A DNA stretch of 64,000 nucleotides from Candidatus Bathyarchaeota archaeon (GTDB taxonomy: Archaea; Thermoproteota; Bathyarchaeia; Bathyarchaeales; Bathycorpusculaceae): assembly GCA_026014485.1 (NCBI GenBank), contig JAOZIE010000023.1, positions 248,001 through 312,000 of the forward strand, given 5' to 3'. The notes beneath the pieces are model-generated. The model was not told the DNA's origin and searched no databases. It saw only the letters and a program-made list of their open reading frames with translations. Position numbers and translations under genes: made by a program. Shown one piece after another: positions 38,354-48,489 of this stretch; within the stretch, counting starts at the first letter, position 1, and each line of letters opens with the position of its first letter.

Positions 38354-39412
38354 CTAAGTTTTTCCTATTACTCTGACGGCTTGGGGTTTGAAGGACAGCC
38401 AAACCTTCTGGCCCGCTTCAAGATTTGCCTCAACAAACGCGCTTTTAGTCATAACTGCCTGAAGCTGAAGCCCCGCCTCAAAAGCCACCGTGACAAAGGG
38501 ACCCAGATCCGTGCAGTCCAGAACGGTTCCCTCCAGCATGTTCAGGGCGCCGTTTTCTACGCGGGAAAAGTGGACGCCTATGTCTTCAGGTCTTATGGCA
38601 ACCACAAACTTCTCCGCAGCTGGCTTTGTTGCGGTTTTCAGCGTCGTTTCTCCTGCGCGGATTAGAGTGAAGTCATTGTGGCATTCAATCAGTTGGGCTG
38701 GGAATATGTTTTCGTACCCCAGAAAACCCGCCACGAACTCGGTTTGCGGCTTCGCGAAAACCTCTTTTGTCTGCCCCACCTGCACGATTTCGCCGGACTT
38801 TATGATTGCCATACGGTCGCCGAGACTGAAGCCCTCACTCTGATTGTGCGTCACATGAACCACCGTTTTTCCGTCCTTGCGAATCTGCTTGAACAATTCT
38901 TTGAGTTCCCTTGACGACTCCGGGTCCAGCCCAGTTAAAGGTTCATCCAGCAGGATGGTTGACGGCTTAGTCACCAGAACCCTTGCGAGAACGGCTTTCT
39001 GTTTTTCTCCGCCGCTGAGGGTTGCTGGTCGACGTTTCTCTAAGGGTGTAAGCCCCGTGGACTCCAGAATTTCGTTAACCGCTTTGCTTCTTTGGGCTTG
39101 GGGGACTCCACGCATTTTCAGCCCGAACTCCACGTTTTGCCGCACGTTCATGTGGGGAAACAGCAGGCAATTCTGGGAGACATATCCTATGCCTCTTTTT
39201 TCAGGAGAATACCCCGTGATGTCCACGTCGTCTAGCAGGATTCTGCCTTGGTCTGGTTTTTGGAAACCCATTATGGTTTCAAGAAGCAGGGTTTTGCCTG
39301 CGCCTGTTGGACCCAGAAGAATGAAGTATTCGCCGCTGTCGATGGTTACGTTTATGTTGTTTAGCTTGAATCCACGCCAAGTTTTGGAGATACCCTCGAT
39401 GTTTAGTCCCAG
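38354..39412 (-). CDS. wtpC: tungstate/molybdate-type ABC transporter ATPase
   Basis: A 352-residue ATPase. The frame includes Walker A (LGPTGAGKTLLLE), Q-loop (YVSQNCLLFPHMN), signature (LSGGEKQKAVLARVL), Walker B (ILLDEPLTGLD) and a C-terminal TOBE/MOP-like domain (about 235-350). An ATG start at 39271 would delete Walker A. Upstream, the frame is open only from a TGA at 39421-39419, and the codons are AAT AAG CTG GGA CTA AAC ATC. GGAGG at about 39422-39426 is nine bases before CTG, and relatives begin there (M-x-L-x-I-x-x-I-S-K). CTG at 39412 is therefore the likely start. Third transporter gene, right after the permease. Confidence 0.85.
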   Translation of the reverse strand: MGLNIEGISKTWRGFKLNNINVTIDSGEYFILLGPTGAGKTLLLETIMGFQKPDQGRILLDDVDITGYSPEKRGIGYVSQNCLLFPHMNVRQNVEFGLKMRGVPQAQRSKAVNEILESTGLTPLEKRRPATLSGGEKQKAVLARVLVTKPSTILLDEPLTGLDPESSRELKELFKQIRKDGKTVVHVTHNQSEGFSLGDRMAIIKSGEIVQVGQTKEVFAKPQTEFVAGFLGYENIFPAQLIECHNDFTLIRAGETTLKTATKPAAEKFVVAIRPEDIGVHFSRVENGALNMLEGTVLDCTDLGPFVTVAFEAGLQLQAVMTKSAFVEANLEAGQKVWLSFKPQAVRVIGKT

Positions 39413-39427
39413 CTTATTTCACCTCCA

Positions 39428-40222
39428 TTACCTTATCGGGTTTTTTGATTTGAACACGGTCACCCTGAACACCAGAAGAATGGCGATGGCCAGCAGTATC
39501 AGGACCCCGTTTATTGGAAGCGCCGCTTTTAAGCCGTTAATAACAAAGACATCGTAGAGGTAAATCGGCGCTGTTTTGGGGAAGTACGCAAGGATAGCTA
39601 CGGCTCCGAATTCGCTAACCGCCCTAGCCCACGTCAGCAGGCACCCCGTTAAGATGCCCCGCGAAGCCAACGGCAAAGTAACATGCCTAAACACCTGAAA
39701 CCGCGTAGCACCCAAGCTTCTTCCAGTTTTTTCTACGCTTGGGCTTATCGACGTGAAGGCTTCTTGGGCGCTTCTAATCATGAACGGTGCACTAACAAAC
39801 GCCATGGCCGCCACTATGCCCCACATTGTGTCCACGAATCCGATGCCGATATTGGCGAACGCCGCGCCGATGGGGTAGCTTGGAGCCAAAACGGCGAATA
39901 GGGCGATGCCTGCGGTGTTGTGGGGAAGCAAAATGGGTATGTCAATTAGGGAATCTAACGCTTTTTTTCCCCAAAACTCTGACCGCGTAAACAGATACGC
40001 AAAAGGAACGCCTAACACAAGCATAAGCGCCGTTGCTATGAAGGCGCAGTAGAAGCTTGTCCATATGGCGCTTAGAGTCCGCTCGTCGGTTAAGGCGCCG
40101 GGGATGCCTGACGCTGAACCTGCCACAGAGGCAATAACGGGCACCATCAGGAACAGAATCATAACTACGCTAAGAACAAGTGAAACCGTGATGAACGGTG
40201 ACTTCGTTTTTATCCAAGCCAA
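39428..40222 (-). CDS. wtpB: tungstate/molybdate ABC transporter permease
   Basis: A 264-residue permease with six membrane helices. The ATPase-contact EAA loop is visible as LPLASRGILTGCLLTWARAVSEFG (about 188-211, G-C-L-L-x-W-A-R). ALDSLIDIPILLPHNTAGIAL is typical of ModB/WtpB/CysT permeases. It starts at TTG and ends seven bases before the wtpC Shine-Dalgarno region. Middle gene of the binding protein-permease-ATPase set. Confidence 0.88.
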   Translation of the reverse strand: MAWIKTKSPFITVSLVLSVVMILFLMVPVIASVAGSASGIPGALTDERTLSAIWTSFYCAFIATALMLVLGVPFAYLFTRSEFWGKKALDSLIDIPILLPHNTAGIALFAVLAPSYPIGAAFANIGIGFVDTMWGIVAAMAFVSAPFMIRSAQEAFTSISPSVEKTGRSLGATRFQVFRHVTLPLASRGILTGCLLTWARAVSEFGAVAILAYFPKTAPIYLYDVFVINGLKAALPINGVLILLAIAILLVFRVTVFKSKNPIR

Positions 40223-40276: not shown

Positions 40277-41362
40277 TTAGGGTTCTGCAGTGACAAGCGA
40301 CTGCAGGTTTGCGGGAACGTTCTGGATGTTGTCGGTGTATGCTGGACTGTAAACTGGGTGGTAGCAGTCATCAAAGTCGGTTTTGCCTTGTCCCGCCAAA
40401 AGGAACTCTACAAATTTCTCTGCTAATTCAGGGTTAGGCGCATTTGCGGGTATGGTTAAGCCGTAGTAGATGGTTTCGCCTGTTCGGTCCAGATTCACCG
40501 TTGCGAAGCGTTGGTGGTCATACACGACTTGGACGCGTTCATAGTTACTTTGGTACTGTGCTGAGCCCAAGTTGATTTCGTCTGGAAGCGAAACGTAGCC
40601 AAAGCCGTATTGCCGCGCGTTGCTAAGATAAATCAACGAGTAATCTAAGTATCCTGACTCCAACAGCGCTATCAAGTCTATCTCGCTTGACCTCAAGGTA
40701 AGCTTGTCACCTTTGGGTTGCTGCGTGTCAGGAACAGTAATCGTGTAGTTCCCATCGTTTGCGATAGAGTTAATCGGCGGATCCATGTTTGCTGTGATTA
40801 AGTCATGAAACAATGTTGGTTCATCATAGTAGTCTTGGGCAAGTTGAATAGTTGTTAGGGCGCGGTATCCAAGTGCCGCCAGTTGAGGATTAGCAAACCC
40901 AAGTTTAACTTCAGGCCGCGATAAAATTGAGTACCAGTTGTCCGCGTTTATTTCGTCGGCGTATCTGCTGGTGTTGGTGTAAGCAAGCACCATCGTGTTG
41001 GTGGCGAACCTGATGTAGTAGCTGCCGTAGCTTTGATCGGTGCCCGCCATCTTCGTGGGGTACATCATGGTTGGAATTAACGAGTAATCAGCAGCAAGAG
41101 CAACATCAATCAGCTGGTTCAACTCGGTAATGTGTCTAATGACCTGTATGGTCCCGTGCCCTTGAACCTGCAAATCAATGTCAGGGTAAGCTTTCTCAAA
41201 ATCCTCTTCCACCACCGCAAGCGGATACTCTAAGCTGGTGGCACAGTAGACCTTGAGAACTTGCTGTTGCGTGTTAAACATATTATTAAAAACAAAAAAA
41301 TATGTGGAGGCGAGCAGGACCACCGCGATGATCACTGCCGCCGCCGCGTAGGTTTTTTTCAT
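40277..41362 (-). CDS. wtpA: tungstate/molybdate-binding protein WtpA-like
   Basis: A 361-residue lipobox-less, N-terminally anchored binding protein (hydrophobic segment about 5-26). The WtpA/ModA fold begins LKVYCATSLEYPLAVVEEDF near 36-55, continues with GHGTIQVIRHI, and has the oxyanion-site helices FATNTMVLAYTN and FANPQLAALGYRALTTIQLA. It is 30 bases after the 701-residue surface protein gene and 54 before wtpB. Tungstate preference over molybdate is likely by family (WtpA) but not proven from sequence. Confidence 0.85.
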   Translation of the reverse strand: MKKTYAAAAVIIAVVLLASTYFFVFNNMFNTQQQVLKVYCATSLEYPLAVVEEDFEKAYPDIDLQVQGHGTIQVIRHITELNQLIDVALAADYSLIPTMMYPTKMAGTDQSYGSYYIRFATNTMVLAYTNTSRYADEINADNWYSILSRPEVKLGFANPQLAALGYRALTTIQLAQDYYDEPTLFHDLITANMDPPINSIANDGNYTITVPDTQQPKGDKLTLRSSEIDLIALLESGYLDYSLIYLSNARQYGFGYVSLPDEINLGSAQYQSNYERVQVVYDHQRFATVNLDRTGETIYYGLTIPANAPNPELAEKFVEFLLAGQGKTDFDDCYHPVYSPAYTDNIQNVPANLQSLVTAEP

Positions 41363-41392: not shown

Positions 41393-43498
41393 TTAGATTA
41401 TTTCTATTGCAACGACCATCTTTGCGCTCATGCTGCCTGTAGTGTAGTAGCCGTCAGGTCCAACAAGAATTGACCTCAAAGGTCCTGGGTCAACTGCTAA
41501 GCTTGCACCATCCAGTTGATAACCAAGGATCATTGTAAGACTGCTTGCTGTTACCTGATTTCCGCTTGAATCGTATGCGACTGCGCCTTCTCCGGAAAGT
41601 GCTCCGTAAGTATAAGTTGTTGCGTAACCGTCTGAGGCGGTGACTTTGATTGTGTTACTTGAGGTCAGGCCAAATGGTTGCAGAAGCGTAAGCATTGACA
41701 CACCAGTATATGCTCCATAGTTTGATAGCTTACCTGAACTTGACCGTGTACCGCCATTTGCAGTGATGCTTTCTATGCTGGCTAAGTCATTGGCGAATAA
41801 TGTTACGCTAGTTCCGTTTGCCGCTGTAACTGTCAGTGTTATGTTGCGGTTCATGGGTATGATCTGAATTTCAGTAATGCACTTGAGGCGTTCTTTTCCT
41901 CCGCCTAAGTCGTCTCCTGTGAGGCGTAGTGGTCCGCTGTCAGCGTCGATTGCTTCTCCGTTAACTAGGTTTGCGATAAAGATGTCCTTGTTTTCTTTAA
42001 CGCGGCTGTCGTTTAGCGCTAAGACTGTTCCGTCTGAAGCGATAACTTTTGCTACATAGCCGTCGCTGATTGCTGCATCGGTTATTGCGCCGTTGGTTGT
42101 TGCCCAATATACGAGTCTGTAGAGTGTGGTTCCTGTCCAAACGTTGTCTTTGCTGTCGGTGTAGCTTGAGCTGACTTGACTAACCTCTGCTTCAAATTCG
42201 GTGCTGGACATGGTTACTTGTTCTGTTCCAGTTATGAGCAAGTCGTATTGACTTGGTGCAGCTGAGGGTGATGGTGTCGCTGTGGGTGCGGCGGTTGGAT
42301 TTGAAGTGGGGTTAGCGGTTGCTGTAGGGCTCGGTGTTGCTGTTGGTGCCACAGTTGGAGCGGGCGTGGTGGTTACTGTCGGAGTTGTAGGGGCTGCGGG
42401 AGAAGACGAGGGGGAAGGCGAAGCCGAGGATGACGCTGATGGGTTGAGCACTATTTGGATCTCTACGATGTTTTTGACTTTCTGCTGTCCAGTTACATCC
42501 GAGCCAACTATGGTAAGTGGCCAGTATGGTTCTGAGAGTACTGCACCGTTTAATGTACCTGCAACGATGATGTTGTCGTTTAACCACACGCTGGTGTCCT
42601 CAAGGGTCGCGGAGTATCCGTCGCCAGATATAATTTTAACTGAGTAGCCTTGGTCTAAGGTGTCGTTGCTGATTCCGCCGTTATAGTTATACCATGAAAC
42701 CCATCGCCAGAGTGCTGTACCTGCCCAAACGTTGCCGTTGTCGTCGGTCCATTCTAATGTGAAGTGGTTGTAATCTGCAGTCCAATCTTGACGGTCCATG
42801 CTGTACGGCTCAGTGTCGCCTGTGGAGTCAACCGTTACGGTCCAGTCTCTCACGTTGTTAGTGACTTCTATTTTGGATACCATCTTTGTCCAGAAGTGTC
42901 CCTCGGTGAGTAGACCTTCAGGTCCTAAGACGCCGATTCTGAGGGGTCCTTGCTCAGAAGGCAAAACGGCGCCGTCCATCAAGTAGTTTGCTGTCATAGT
43001 CATTGGTTGAGTGGCTTCTTTTTCACTGCCCGTTACGGGGTCGTAGGTTGTGAAGCCGTTTCCGTTGGCTTGGTCGTAGGTGTAGACCATTGAGTATCCA
43101 TCGGAAGCGGTGATGGTGAGTGTCTGGGTGCTGGTTATCCCGCCTACTAAGTCGCATAGTGTCAAAATGGGGACGCCGGTGTATGAGCCTACGGCTGCGA
43201 TGTATCCGCCGCTGCTTTTGTATCCAGCGTTTTCGGTGTACGCGTCAAGGGCTGCTATGTCGTCTGCATGCAAGACAACTTGGTCTCCGTTTGCGCCGAT
43301 GACAGTCAACGTCATCTCGGGCAATGTGACTGCTGGGCTTGAGCTAGGATTAGCGCTTGGGCTGGGACTCGGCGAGGTGGCTGGCTGCGAAAACAAGCTT
43401 GGAGCTTGCCAAGCGGCGACTGCGGCTACAACGATTATGACGATAACGATTGCTGCGAGTAGTTTCGTGATTCCTTTTGTTTGAGAACTCATTCTCAT
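41393..43498 (-). CDS. surface protein with four molybdopterin-oxidoreductase-fold domains
   Basis: A 701-residue exported protein: membrane anchor (about 9-30), Pro/Ser linker (about 35-55), then four domains of the sulfite-oxidase/oxidoreductase-molybdopterin-binding-like fold. Domains 1 and 4 (about 58-208 and 550-700) are alike (YTGVPILTLCDLVGG vs YTGVSMLTLLQPFGL; TASDGYSMVYTYD vs TASDGYATTYTYG; GPLRIGVLGPEG vs GPLRSILVGPDG). Domains 2 and 3 (about 212-345, 415-545) form a second pair (VWAGTALWRWVSW vs VWTGTTLYRLVYW). A Thr/Pro/Ala linker lies at 347-412. Enzyme residues such as the cofactor cysteine are not apparent. It starts with GGAGAGAAAA before ATG and leads the wtpABC-like operon. 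Confidence 0.8.
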   Translation of the reverse strand: MRMSSQTKGITKLLAAIVIVIIVVAAVAAWQAPSLFSQPATSPSPSPSANPSSSPAVTLPEMTLTVIGANGDQVVLHADDIAALDAYTENAGYKSSGGYIAAVGSYTGVPILTLCDLVGGITSTQTLTITASDGYSMVYTYDQANGNGFTTYDPVTGSEKEATQPMTMTANYLMDGAVLPSEQGPLRIGVLGPEGLLTEGHFWTKMVSKIEVTNNVRDWTVTVDSTGDTEPYSMDRQDWTADYNHFTLEWTDDNGNVWAGTALWRWVSWYNYNGGISNDTLDQGYSVKIISGDGYSATLEDTSVWLNDNIIVAGTLNGAVLSEPYWPLTIVGSDVTGQQKVKNIVEIQIVLNPSASSSASPSPSSSPAAPTTPTVTTTPAPTVAPTATPSPTATANPTSNPTAAPTATPSPSAAPSQYDLLITGTEQVTMSSTEFEAEVSQVSSSYTDSKDNVWTGTTLYRLVYWATTNGAITDAAISDGYVAKVIASDGTVLALNDSRVKENKDIFIANLVNGEAIDADSGPLRLTGDDLGGGKERLKCITEIQIIPMNRNITLTVTAANGTSVTLFANDLASIESITANGGTRSSSGKLSNYGAYTGVSMLTLLQPFGLTSSNTIKVTASDGYATTYTYGALSGEGAVAYDSSGNQVTASSLTMILGYQLDGASLAVDPGPLRSILVGPDGYYTTGSMSAKMVVAIEII

Positions 43499-43664
43499 TT
43501 TTCTCTCCTTACGTGCGCAAAATCAGCGTTGTGCATATAAAAACATTTCGAAACTGCGGCTAAAATTCCATCAACAACTACAGTGTAAAAAGAATAAACC
43601 GAAAAAGCAGCTTCAGCTTTTCTGCCAACATTACAACTTCTCTCATGGTAATTATGCGGATAAC

Positions 43665-44795
43665 TCAGGAGACTTTAGAAAGGGGCGTAGCTGTTGCCCC
43701 GCGGGTTTTTCTCCAAAAAACTGTTGCTGCCGTACAAAGAGTTAGCAAGATGACTGCGGCGATTACGCTGGGAAACTCTGGGATTTCGGTGTTTTCGTTT
43801 ACTGCGGCGGCGTTCCAGAAGTTAGTGCTTAACGTAAACTGGTTGTCCTCGTCGGTCATGAAGGTGTTTGCATAAAGGAGAAAGGTCTTCACATCAATTA
43901 CGTTGTGAACGGTGTCAAACGTCAGAATCCTTAGGCTTGCTGAACCTAACTCGTTGTCTTTTTCTTGGCGGTTAAACACTAGTTCGTGCCTGTCTCCGAC
44001 CTGTGTTCGGATTCCAGAATGCACCAAAGGATAAACGTGTCCGCTCAGCGTCAAGAAAACACTTTCGTGAGTGGCTAAGACGGTGCGCCTTAAATTCATC
44101 GCCCAAGATTCGTATCCGCTTGTTCGGTTAACGTAGAAGTGCGTTGCTACAATAGCATGGGATTCTGGGTGGGTATCCAAAAGGTTATTGGTCCACGTTA
44201 GAGCTGCATCGTCAGCGTTGAATGCAAGGTTTACAATCAGGAAATCCATGTCTGAAGCGGTAAAGTGGACCGCAGTACTTATTCCGTCACCGTAGCTGCC
44301 TATCCAGTAAGGCTTTGCCTGCAAGGCTGCGGGGTTAAACGCTGCATACTGGTTGCCAATCCAGCAGGTCTGGTTGTAATCGTGGTTTCCTGCATCCCAA
44401 CAGTAGGGTATACCTGCGTCCAAGAATCTGCTTATCGAACTGTTTGCGTCAACCCATTGTGTCTGGTTACCCTCAGTTTCCACAATGTCCCCCGTGTGAA
44501 TTACCATTTGAACATTGTATTTGTCTACGTTGTTGACTATCCAGCGGCAGAGGCTGTCAAAGTATGTGGGGTACCTCTCTGCAAGATACTGGGTGTCTGT
44601 TATCCAGATTATCGAGAAGTTTTCGCCTGTTCCCACTGCAGGAGCCACCGTTAAGGCAGAGTCCGAAAGCGCTGTTGCCTCAGGCAGAACTTTGGCTGAG
44701 ACGCAGCAGGGTTGGCAACTGCTTTGAATGGGTGTCATTAGCACGGCGACAAACACAAGCGCCACCGCAACCTTAAATACAGAACGCGTTTTCAT
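43665..44795 (-). CDS. secreted metallophosphoesterase with PEF-type C-terminal sorting signal
   Basis: A 376-residue exported calcineurin-like phosphoesterase. A signal peptide (about 5-25) is followed by a catalytic domain with ITDTQYLAE near 68-76, HTGDIVET near 100-107, DAGNHDYN near 133-140 and a late SGHVYPLVHSG. The C-terminus reads EIPEFPSVIAAVILLTLCTA then WRKTRG: a PEF motif, hydrophobic helix and basic end, as in archaeosortase substrates. ATG at 44795 is chosen; the frame extends three codons further. It is the gene upstream of the 701-residue surface protein, with 166 bases between. Confidence 0.85.
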   Translation of the reverse strand: MKTRSVFKVAVALVFVAVLMTPIQSSCQPCCVSAKVLPEATALSDSALTVAPAVGTGENFSIIWITDTQYLAERYPTYFDSLCRWIVNNVDKYNVQMVIHTGDIVETEGNQTQWVDANSSISRFLDAGIPYCWDAGNHDYNQTCWIGNQYAAFNPAALQAKPYWIGSYGDGISTAVHFTASDMDFLIVNLAFNADDAALTWTNNLLDTHPESHAIVATHFYVNRTSGYESWAMNLRRTVLATHESVFLTLSGHVYPLVHSGIRTQVGDRHELVFNRQEKDNELGSASLRILTFDTVHNVIDVKTFLLYANTFMTDEDNQFTLSTNFWNAAAVNENTEIPEFPSVIAAVILLTLCTAATVFWRKTRGATATPLSKVS

Positions 44796-44958
44796 GGTTA
44801 ACATTCCTTGCGATTCAAGCTTGCCTGCTTTTACTATGCTGCGAAAGCTTATTTAACGGCAACGTTGTGTCTATTAAAACATATCGGTTCACTGTTCCTC
44901 AAATATCGGTAACCGTGCAACCGCCATTTTACAAGAGGAAGAAGAGGGAAAGCAGAAC

Positions 44959-45879
44959 ATGAAGACGAAAAATGCCGTATTTGCTGCCATCTTAGTTGTT
45001 GTTTTGGTTGTTGCTGCGTTTGCCGTATACTTCACCCAAGTTCACCCTGCCGAAAATTCTTCGTTGCCCGCTGGTGAACCACCACAGTGGCAAATCAACC
45101 TCACAGGCAACGTGGATCAAGAGAAAACTTTAACAATCAACGACCTCACTCAGATGCCCCTCACAAACGTCACTACCGTTATTAACGGCGAAAACGCAAC
45201 GTACGTTGGGGTTCCATTCTACGACTTCTGCAACCTGACGGGTATGCAGTGGGATGTGGGACCCATCGAAGTCATCAGCGCAGATGGCACAATCGGAACT
45301 ATGAACATTTTTCAGGCATACAACAGCAGCGCGTACCCCTACTACTACACAAACAACGTCATCACCTTGGTTTTCGTGAAGAATGGGCAGTGGATGACCG
45401 AAGAAACTGGGGGACCCGTGAAGCTGGTTGCCCCATACTTCTCCGCGGAGTACCAAGTTGACAGCGTCGCCGAAATCCGCTTCAAGCCCTGGCTGATGTA
45501 CATAACAGGGGAAGTGGAGAACCCGCTGGTTATAACCCGCGCCAACCTCACCAGCTACCCCTCAACCACAGTGTATGCCGAATTCGCGCCCAGCGTGAAA
45601 CGGTGGGCAAACTGGACTGGACTGCCCATCCTGGATGTTCTGGAACTCGCCAACATGACCGCACGAGCCGAAAAAATCACCGTGGTCGCGGTGGATGGCT
45701 ACGTGAAAAACTACACGCTTACTCAGGTTGCCGACGGAAACATGCTCATCGGATACGCGGAAAACGACCAGCCGCTGCCGCATACTGACGGCGGACCCTA
45801 CAGGCTGTTTGCTCCCACAGACCAGTACAAGTGGGCGCAGTTCTGGGTGAAATTTGTCTCCGAAATTATAGTCTCATAA
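44959..45879 (+). CDS. surface protein with two molybdopterin-oxidoreductase-fold domains
   Basis: A 306-residue exported protein with an N-terminal membrane segment (about 7-25). Two domains resemble those of the 701-residue protein nearby: domain 1 (about 38-170) has TYVGVPFYDFCNLTGM and GGPVKLVAPYFSAEYQVDSV, and domain 2 (about 175-306) has RWANWTGLPILDVLELANM, VVAVDGYVKNYTL and GGPYRLFAPTDQYKWAQFWV. This order and these motifs match the oxidoreductase molybdopterin-binding fold, again without an obvious cofactor cysteine. It is divergent to the phosphoesterase and followed by a 40-residue membrane protein gene. Confidence 0.75.
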   Translation: MKTKNAVFAAILVVVLVVAAFAVYFTQVHPAENSSLPAGEPPQWQINLTGNVDQEKTLTINDLTQMPLTNVTTVINGENATYVGVPFYDFCNLTGMQWDVGPIEVISADGTIGTMNIFQAYNSSAYPYYYTNNVITLVFVKNGQWMTEETGGPVKLVAPYFSAEYQVDSVAEIRFKPWLMYITGEVENPLVITRANLTSYPSTTVYAEFAPSVKRWANWTGLPILDVLELANMTARAEKITVVAVDGYVKNYTLTQVADGNMLIGYAENDQPLPHTDGGPYRLFAPTDQYKWAQFWVKFVSEIIVS

Positions 45880-46976: not shown

Positions 46977-47741
46977 CTACTTGAGTTTTTTCAGTTTTGC
47001 AGTAGCCGATTTCTTTTTCACGGATACTTTCAAAGCTCCTGCTTGACTTGTTGCCGCTTTTACTACTGTTTTAGTCACAGTTTTAGTCGTCGAAGTCTTC
47101 GGGGTTTGGTCTGCAACTTGGCTGAGAACCGTGTTGCCGACAGACTGCCTGTAGAGTTCCGCAAGCGCCGTGTTTAGGTTTTTGTGGTTTTTGCAGATGT
47201 TGTAGCTTATCGAGTTGCCCTTAAGCTCTGAGAGCGGCAGCACCCTCATGCATAGGTCTATGTTTGCGCGGATAGGGTTCAGATTCAAGTCGAAGGCTTC
47301 CTCAGTGACTTTCATGCTGACTATCCTTGTAGGGAGCAGCCGTTGAGTTCCCCAGAAGAACAGAACGATTTTGGATTCCGCTTTCGCGTTTGGGTCAGCA
47401 GTGGGGGACATCATGGACTCCAACGTAGCAAGTGCGGGGTGTAAACCTGCTTTGGATACGCTCACGTTTTCTTCAGGTCGCTCCAGTTGGTCTGCAGCGT
47501 CAAGTTCAAGCGTTAAATAGATGAGTTCAACGGGCGGCGCTGCTGTGGGCGGCGCGCTGGATTCTGCAACGGGGGTTCCGTCTGGGTTAAGGTAGGCGAG
47601 GGTGCGAACCAGCTTTTCTGGGTTATACTGGAAAACAAAAGCTGTCGCGTTTTCCGTTACGGTCTGAGCGGAGGCTTCAACGGCTATCAACGCAGCTTTG
47701 AGGGCTTTGACTCTTGCCGGGGACGACCTTGACATGCGCAT
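46977..47741 (-). CDS. contractile-injection/phage-tail tube-associated protein (CIS tube/Afp7-like)
   Basis: A 254-residue protein. The N-terminal domain (about 25-185) resembles the tube-cap/adaptor proteins of contractile injection systems: AFVFQYNPEKLVRTL near 32-46, LIYLTLELDAADQLE near 72-86, KIVLFFWGTQRLLPTRIVSM near 126-145, and EEAFDLNLNPIRANIDLCMRV near 150-170. The C-terminal tail is Lys/Thr-rich, low complexity (about 215-254), where relatives carry LysM. It starts seven bases after the tube protein. No sheath, baseplate, spike, ATPase or terminator gene is adjacent, so it forms only an orphan pair. Confidence 0.7.
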   Translation of the reverse strand: MRMSRSSPARVKALKAALIAVEASAQTVTENATAFVFQYNPEKLVRTLAYLNPDGTPVAESSAPPTAAPPVELIYLTLELDAADQLERPEENVSVSKAGLHPALATLESMMSPTADPNAKAESKIVLFFWGTQRLLPTRIVSMKVTEEAFDLNLNPIRANIDLCMRVLPLSELKGNSISYNICKNHKNLNTALAELYRQSVGNTVLSQVADQTPKTSTTKTVTKTVVKAATSQAGALKVSVKKKSATAKLKKLK

Positions 47742-47748
47742 TCCCCGT

Positions 47749-48267
47749 CTAACTGGATTTAGATGGCTCTGCAGGTTCCGTTACGGCTGTGTCTCTTTCC
47801 CAGCCTTCGTTCTCCAACTTCAACACCTGAATGGCAACAGCGTTTCCGTTTGCGTCCAGCTCAGGCAATGCTTGAAACTCTGAAACCCAGCACCGATACA
47901 AAACGTAGACAAAAGCACGTTGTCCTGCTTCGTTGTAGAATTCGATGGTTATGTCTTTGCGGAAGTCCTTCAGAGAAACCTCAGTACCTGACCCAGAGCC
48001 GAAGTCCCAGACTTTGTTTGCCCACCGCTCGAATTCAGGGTCGTGGGTTACGCCCCGCTCCAGCACAACGGGGTCATAGCGGGTTCTGCCGGGTGATTTT
48101 CTTTCAGTGCTGGGGTCGCCGCCTTCCCTATGCGTGACCACTTCTGTGACTCGCCTTAATGGGCTGATTTTTGAGACTCCTGCAACGTATTTGCCGTCCC
48201 ACTTGATTCGGAACTTGAAGTTCTTGTAAGGGTCAAATCTGTTGGGGTTCACTGTGAATTGAGGCAT
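47749..48267 (-). CDS. phage-tail/injection-system tube protein (gp19-like)
   Basis: A 172-residue protein of the T4 gp19-like tube family: NPNRFDPYKNFKFRIKWDGK near 6-25, VAGVSKISPLRRVTEVVTHR near 27-46, GGDPSTERKSPGRTRYDPVV near 47-66, VLERGVTHDPEFERWAN, DITIEFYNEAGQRAFVYVLY near 104-123 and VSEFQALPELDANGNAVAIQ near 127-146. The pattern (strand pairs, D-x-E-x-W, FYN..G) is that of inner tube subunits, which stack into hexameric tubes. ATG at 48267 with GGTGAT is preferred over the extended frame to 48336. It leads the pair with the adaptor-like gene. Confidence 0.78.
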   Translation of the reverse strand: MPQFTVNPNRFDPYKNFKFRIKWDGKYVAGVSKISPLRRVTEVVTHREGGDPSTERKSPGRTRYDPVVLERGVTHDPEFERWANKVWDFGSGSGTEVSLKDFRKDITIEFYNEAGQRAFVYVLYRCWVSEFQALPELDANGNAVAIQVLKLENEGWERDTAVTEPAEPSKSS

Positions 48268-48489
48268 TAAATCACCTGTTATTTCCCTATCAAGCTGACT
48301 GCGTTTATTATTCTTGCGGTTACCTGCCCTCCACATTTGCTACAAATTTTTTCTTGGGCAACAGAAGTGCATGGTTTGCTTGGTTTAATTCCGCGTTGCT
48401 CACCCGGACAGGCGGGTTGTAGCAGTATGCTGCTCCGAAAGCTTAATTTCGAAAGGCTGAGTTAAATTGTCCAATGCAGAGGCGATTGA

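Follow-up and report, generated by a model that had tools for sequence, protein, structure and literature searches.

A candidate surface-anchored SUOX-fold partner of a variant WtpABC importer in Bathyarchaeia and some bacteria

Described systems closest to the locus

According to a first report, WtpABC is the commonest molybdenum/tungsten (Mo/W) importer of archaea (PMC6147048). A second one gives Asp160 and Glu218 as the metal ligands of P. furiosus WtpA, describes WtpA alone as a very tight binder, and reports that the protein loses its tungstate selectivity when Asp160 is changed to Asn or Ala (PMC10221389). The third relevant system is PruR, a periplasmic protein described in a review as lacking the Mo-ligating Cys of the SUOX enzymes and as binding reduced pterins by means of Tyr104 and Trp160 (PMC13259868). 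PruR consists of one domain of about 170 aa, and its gene shares a two-gene operon with that of a DcpA or DTB regulator.

We analysed a stretch of 64,000 nucleotides of a Candidatus Bathyarchaeota genome, hereafter called the window. It contains a system resembling WtpABC of the P. furiosus type: its WtpA scores 299.1 bits against TIGR03730 (cut-off 242.75), and WtpB and WtpC are the best matches of the next two genes. The variant system differs from that type by a WtpA belonging to a separate clade, by a HG[ST]xQ motif, by an altered NPNxDPC motif and by a putative extra surface subunit, whose gene ends 30 bases before wtpA and is followed by wtpA, the wtpB-like and the wtpC-like genes. The sequence-only reading had given the same 30-base gap and the same wtpA assignment. 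The features are the following:

38354..39412, minus strand: WtpC-like ATPase (best match below cut-off)
39428..40222, minus strand: WtpB-like permease (best match NF040839, 245 bits, below the cut-off of 340)
40277..41362, minus strand: variant WtpA (TIGR03730, alignment, tree)
41393..43498, minus strand: SUOX-fold surface protein, 701 aa, A-B-B-A (reading frame, Pfam, iterated profile)
41399..41836, minus strand: A4 domain, residues 555-700 (iterated profile)
41861..42235, minus strand: B2 domain, residues 422-546 (Pfam and iterated profile)
42236..42442, minus strand: Pro/Ser/Thr-rich linker, residues 353-421 (by eye)
42452..42763, minus strand: B1 domain, residues 246-349, divergent SUOX-like (iterated profile; weak fold matches)
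42863..43309, minus strand: A1 domain, residues 64-212 (iterated profile, alignment, fold)
43406..43465, minus strand: N-terminal hydrophobic anchor or signal, about residues 12-31 (by eye)
43533..43546, minus strand: TATA-like stretch 5' of the surface-protein gene (by eye)
43665..44804, minus strand: secreted metallophosphoesterase, PF00149, purple-acid-phosphatase-like model (Pfam, model)
44959..45879, plus strand: divergent two-domain PF00174 surface protein (reading frame, Pfam)

Domains, fold and active site of the surface protein

At its N-terminus the 701-aa protein has a hydrophobic segment, then a short Pro/Ser/Thr stretch; an A-B pair and a B-A pair follow, joined by a longer Pro/Ser/Thr linker. 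Both A and both B domains were recovered by a profile seeded with A1 and iterated through the relatives, and the whole protein reaches 49.2 bits with PF00174 (cut-off 24), B2 being the best-scoring stretch, which places it in the SUOX/Oxidored_molyb superfamily. These results bear out the A-B-B-A arrangement of molybdopterin-binding-like domains that had been proposed from the letters. Searching PDB sequences with the whole protein returned matches confined to the Pro/Ser/Thr-rich stretches, and no twin-arginine motif was seen by eye in the N-terminus. An Rfam search gave no match at the gathering threshold; sigma-70 and terminator scans, whose models are ill-suited to archaea, did not exceed the level of shuffled sequences.

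The A-B half (residues 58-352) was modelled with 14 related sequences (mean pLDDT 88.9, pTM 0.62). Using this model, Foldseek retrieved sulfite dehydrogenases, SoxCD, PruR and YedY at E-values from 5e-6 to 1e-4. Superposition of the A domain by VIA-align gave Z 15.7 with SoxCD (rmsd 2.3, 135 residues aligned), Z 15.3 with chicken sulfite oxidase (rmsd 2.5, 136 aligned) and Z 14.8 with PruR entry 7kom (rmsd 2.5, 127 aligned); the three PruR structures (PDB 7KOM, 7RKB, 7KOS) range from Z 13.6 to 14.8, and the SUOX enzymes (SoxCD 2XTS, SorAB 2BLF, chicken sulfite oxidase 1SOX, YedY 1XDY) share the fold over about 135 residues at rmsd 2.3-2.7. In this model the A domain is of the SUOX/MPT type. 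The B domain is homologous to the SUOX family but divergent, with matches at Z of about 6 or less, except for a model entry, 9a64, at Z 10.6. The initial guess of a molybdopterin fold therefore holds for A, on both Foldseek and VIA-align; for B the homology stands and the fold matches are weak. An unrelated fold, named in advance as the outcome that would count against the idea, is not what structure prediction and the MPT-fold search returned, since the A-B model matches the SUOX/MPT family.

In two bacterial loci (L065, 9716-12573, and L064, 9692-13063) the B-type domains carry CxxCH, CxxxxCH or SCH with a later His, possibly a heme or metal site. Heme binding by the B domains of the window, considered because of the CxxCH-like motifs of L065, was discarded, all these motifs being missing from them.

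The active site was examined by alignment with three canonical PF00174 proteins, two from the window's own genome and one from another genome (G075), all of which have a Cys in the metal-ligand motif. Relative to these controls, the column of the Mo-ligating Cys is mostly Ser/Thr in the A domains and no A-type domain keeps the Cys, as the sequence-only reading had suspected for the cofactor-ligating cysteine; an enzyme of the SUOX-type Moco class was accordingly rejected. The A domains also differ in the loop that surrounds the metal site, and they carry an extra stretch around TYDPxTG which is found neither in the controls nor in PruR. What is retained is Asp-x-Tyr and GPLR, with Trp-x-Lys in most first A domains; the latter motif is shared with SoxC and SorA. 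In A1 the corresponding elements are S/T where the Cys is lost, D132-G-Y134, GPLR and E-G-H201-F-W203-T-K205, while A4 lacks the histidine of GHxW. Asp-x-Tyr and Trp-x-Lys are also present in Cys-bearing relatives, so these motifs are not diagnostic of a free-pterin binder.

What the surface protein shares with PruR is export, the SUOX fold and the absence of the Mo-ligating Cys. The alignment included two plasmid-encoded PruR sequences, from Klebsiella and Rhizobium. Tyr104 of the PruR pocket (Asn/Asp102-x-Tyr104) is matched by Asp132-x-Tyr134; the Cys-bearing controls share this motif, and it was dropped as a PruR-specific argument. In the same alignment, Trp160 of the pocket (RSAW) falls on Lys205 of A1, Trp203 being two columns off, so that the A-domain pocket appears to differ from that of PruR. 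The surface protein moreover has four domains where PruR has one, and it adjoins wtpABC and a phosphoesterase instead of a DcpA or DTB regulator. With neither the pocket Trp nor the partner genes matched, PruR proper was rejected; as aligned, the A domain belongs to the SUOX family but is devoid of the Cys ligand.

The variant WtpA and the distribution of A domains

The WtpA of the window has NPQLAALGYR in place of NPNxDPCGYR, a HGTIQVIRH motif and an insertion of 8 residues. In a tree of 26 WtpA rows (33 genomes had matches; those split or truncated at contig ends were excluded), the ten WtpA whose gene follows an A domain all group in one clade, with support 100/100. This clade spans Bathyarchaeia and three bacterial groups, the bacterial rows coming from the A-domain search and being biased in that respect, the archaeal ones not. 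HG[ST]xQ is present in the same ten proteins and in none of the 16 other rows, which have different residues before GS. DPCGYR is replaced in the clade by DA[CLA]GYR, or by AA[LM]GYR in the genus of the window. The window WtpA thus has Ala at the Asp of NPNxDPCGYR; judging from the motif and from aligned archaeal structures, this column would correspond to Asp160, the alignment displaying no P. furiosus row. For the Glu218 site there are two candidate columns, and the window WtpA has Glu at one of them where other clade members have Ser.

The start of wtpC is unusual. There is no ATG, GTG or TTG before the Walker A motif, and the first listed ATG (39271) lies downstream of it. Since the frame is open upstream and a ribosome-site-like GGAGGTGA precedes a CTG codon near 39412, this CTG is probably the start.

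Among 256 genomes of the class, the A-domain profile matches 15 at E <= 1e-12 and WtpA is present in 33; with the whole protein, 14 of 120 relatives match at E <= 1e-6, some through the linker only. Both genes occur in seven Bathyarchaeia-class genomes, and in all seven, four of which belong to one genus, an A domain lies directly before a WtpA gene on the same strand, with gaps of 30, 25, 29, 36 and 8 bases or overlaps of 4 and 11 bases. The 30 WtpA loci read in the class, some with short flanks, include these seven with an A domain. Scanning GTDB contigs with the A-domain family gave 8 loci. An A domain followed by WtpA was found in L062 (the record of genome G006), L063 (Bathyarchaeota), L064 (Peptococcaceae), L065 (Thermoleophilia) and L068 (Anaerolineales), the bacterial cases having been found by searching for the A domain; in L064 and L068 the partner directly before wtpA is a single-domain protein, and L064 has SLH anchors. 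L066 and L067 are of a Mob/Sel type, and L069 is an A-type subtype adjoining ribosomal genes. A neighbourhood restricted to the window, which would have told against the original proposal, was rejected, since other genera and three groups of bacteria have the pair as well. A chance estimate was made for the adjacency and two Fisher tests were run, but as none of them takes relatedness into account they carry no weight here.

One fragmentary genome, G016, contains a canonical WtpA frame that continues into an A domain, inside which the frame is broken (L045, G016:C18, 5000-7036); beyond the break lie segments of A and B type, and after these a WtpA of the clade. This is a possible WtpA-A fusion.

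The histidine of [ED]-G-H-x-W-x-K is present in at least one A domain of 10 of the 10 wtp-linked loci, four of which are from the same genus and not independent, and is missing from all 14 of the other loci inspected. The Trp of this motif is not kept in all A domains, and the second A domains of the same wtp-linked proteins lack its His. Over these ten loci the GHxW His of the A domain co-occurs with the HG[ST]xQ His motif of WtpA.

Away from wtp genes, A-type genes are found in several Mo/W contexts. In G069 and G070 an A-type gene and a phosphoesterase adjoin MobA, MobB, FdhD and subunits of formylmethanofuran dehydrogenase (Fwd/Fmd); in G060 the neighbours are MobA, FdhD, SelD and a selenium-associated LysR regulator (LysR_Sec); in G062 and L067 they are SelD-like and LysR-type genes, named by eye from their likeness to G060; in G089 a ModE-type regulator is near. 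The link of the A-domain family with Mo/W metabolism is strongly supported. Mo/W genes were not nearby for A-type genes at contigs C7 and C11 of the window's own genome, at G001:C10:27 kb, at G177:C96 and at several ribosomal-operon loci.

Two side observations concern these relatives. A single-domain A-type subtype lies beside ribosomal-protein genes in L012, L052, L053 and L069, in Bathyarchaeia and a Thermoplasmata genome, and L107 is assigned to it by sequence alone. Small Rieske-type ferredoxin genes are near A-type genes in L046 (Rieske-like profile) and L047 (by eye).

In each of the four wtp loci of the window's genus, the syntenic block includes the phosphoesterase and the divergent two-domain PF00174 gene. 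The phosphoesterase has no PDB sequence match, and its model is weak (overall pLDDT 66). Its nine best homologues (E <= 2.5e-98; the next is at 9.9e-66) are all in loci with A-type genes, and it was not seen in L063, L064 and L065. Apart from these, two adjoining genes of contractile-injection or phage tail-tube type, by eye, are present within the genus at 46977-48336 of the window (minus strand) and at L044, 13843-15140.

The genome of the window encodes three AOR-type (aldehyde ferredoxin oxidoreductase) proteins and has one weak PF00384 match. On its contig C11 (L144, 1354-2439) a TupA-like tungstate-binding gene has NF041772 as best match, below cut-off. The genome also has one WtpA, so that a second tungstate route may exist.

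Possible roles of the surface protein

The fold, the lost Cys, the kept pterin side, the rebuilt WtpA and the Mo/W-cofactor gene neighbours lead us to favour, with moderate confidence, a surface-anchored accessory ligand-binding subunit of the variant WtpABC importer, capturing Mo/W that is probably pterin-bound. The sequence-only proposal of a protein that captures tungstate, molybdate or a pterin complex is thus supported in part. Our inferences on the ligand, on its transfer to WtpA and on what the phosphatase does are as follows. The A domains, whose SUOX pocket retains its pterin side (Asp-x-Tyr, GPLR, Trp-x-Lys) but not the Mo-ligating Cys, may capture Mo/W outside the cell, most likely still on a pterin or on a pterin-containing piece of the cofactor. 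Phosphate groups could be removed by the phosphatase encoded nearby; the metal, or its complex, would then be passed to the variant WtpA and imported by WtpBC. A pterin ligand is plausible by analogy, because PruR is a Cys-less SUOX-fold protein which binds pterins outside the cytoplasm (PMC13259868). A more specific version, salvage of the intact or partly trimmed Mo/W cofactor, is speculative and rather unlikely: the SUOX-fold protein and the phosphatase would work with the variant WtpABC, the metal-pterin being captured at the surface and the metal or whole complex imported through a WtpA with a new His and altered carboxylates. The strict pairing with an oxyanion-type binding protein and the restriction of the His to wtp-linked A domains could also be explained if the A domains, through His201 and Lys205, bound molybdate or tungstate themselves and so increased its amount near WtpA, with no pterin involved. 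We know of no SUOX-fold protein with a bare oxyanion as ligand, and WtpA alone already binds very tightly (PMC10221389), so that such a concentrator of oxyanions appears doubtful.

The PruR precedent, together with the ModE-like or LysR_Sec regulators near some loci, would be in keeping with a sensor of pterin or oxyanion signalling to a membrane partner, the wtp genes being merely co-controlled; yet no DcpA- or DTB-type gene adjoins the protein in the wtp loci listed and its recurrent physical partner is WtpA, which makes a sensor improbable. Much the same weight is given to an adhesive or structural protein that reuses the fold, as the sequence-only reading had envisaged, and owes its place in the operon to shared regulation only. 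Its repeat domains and Pro/Ser/Thr linkers, the SLH anchors in L064 and the existence of A-type genes away from Mo/W genes would suit such a scaffold, whereas the single-domain partners before wtpA in L064 and L068 are too small for it, His motifs are paired between A domains and WtpA, and most non-wtp relatives are in a Mo/W context; it is less likely because A domains track Mo/W genes in several unrelated contexts. Finally, the SUOX fold and the retained pterin-side motifs could belong to a secreted molybdo- or tungstoenzyme working without a Cys ligand. This is very improbable, as the Cys is missing from all A-type domains, the metal-site loop is changed and no twin-arginine signal for export of a loaded cofactor was seen by eye.

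In the titles and abstract openings of the papers that our searches listed, we found no description of a pairing of WtpA with a SUOX surface protein, none of an importer salvaging metal-pterin or cofactor, and no earlier one of a dedicated WtpABC surface subunit. The locus suggests that the uptake of metal or metal cofactor involves, in archaea and several bacteria, an additional component not described so far. Should metal-pterins prove to be bound by the A domains, cofactor set free by neighbouring cells could be reused. Ala at the putative Asp160 would offer a natural test of what determines tungstate selectivity; the genome concerned has three AOR genes and a separate TupA-like gene.
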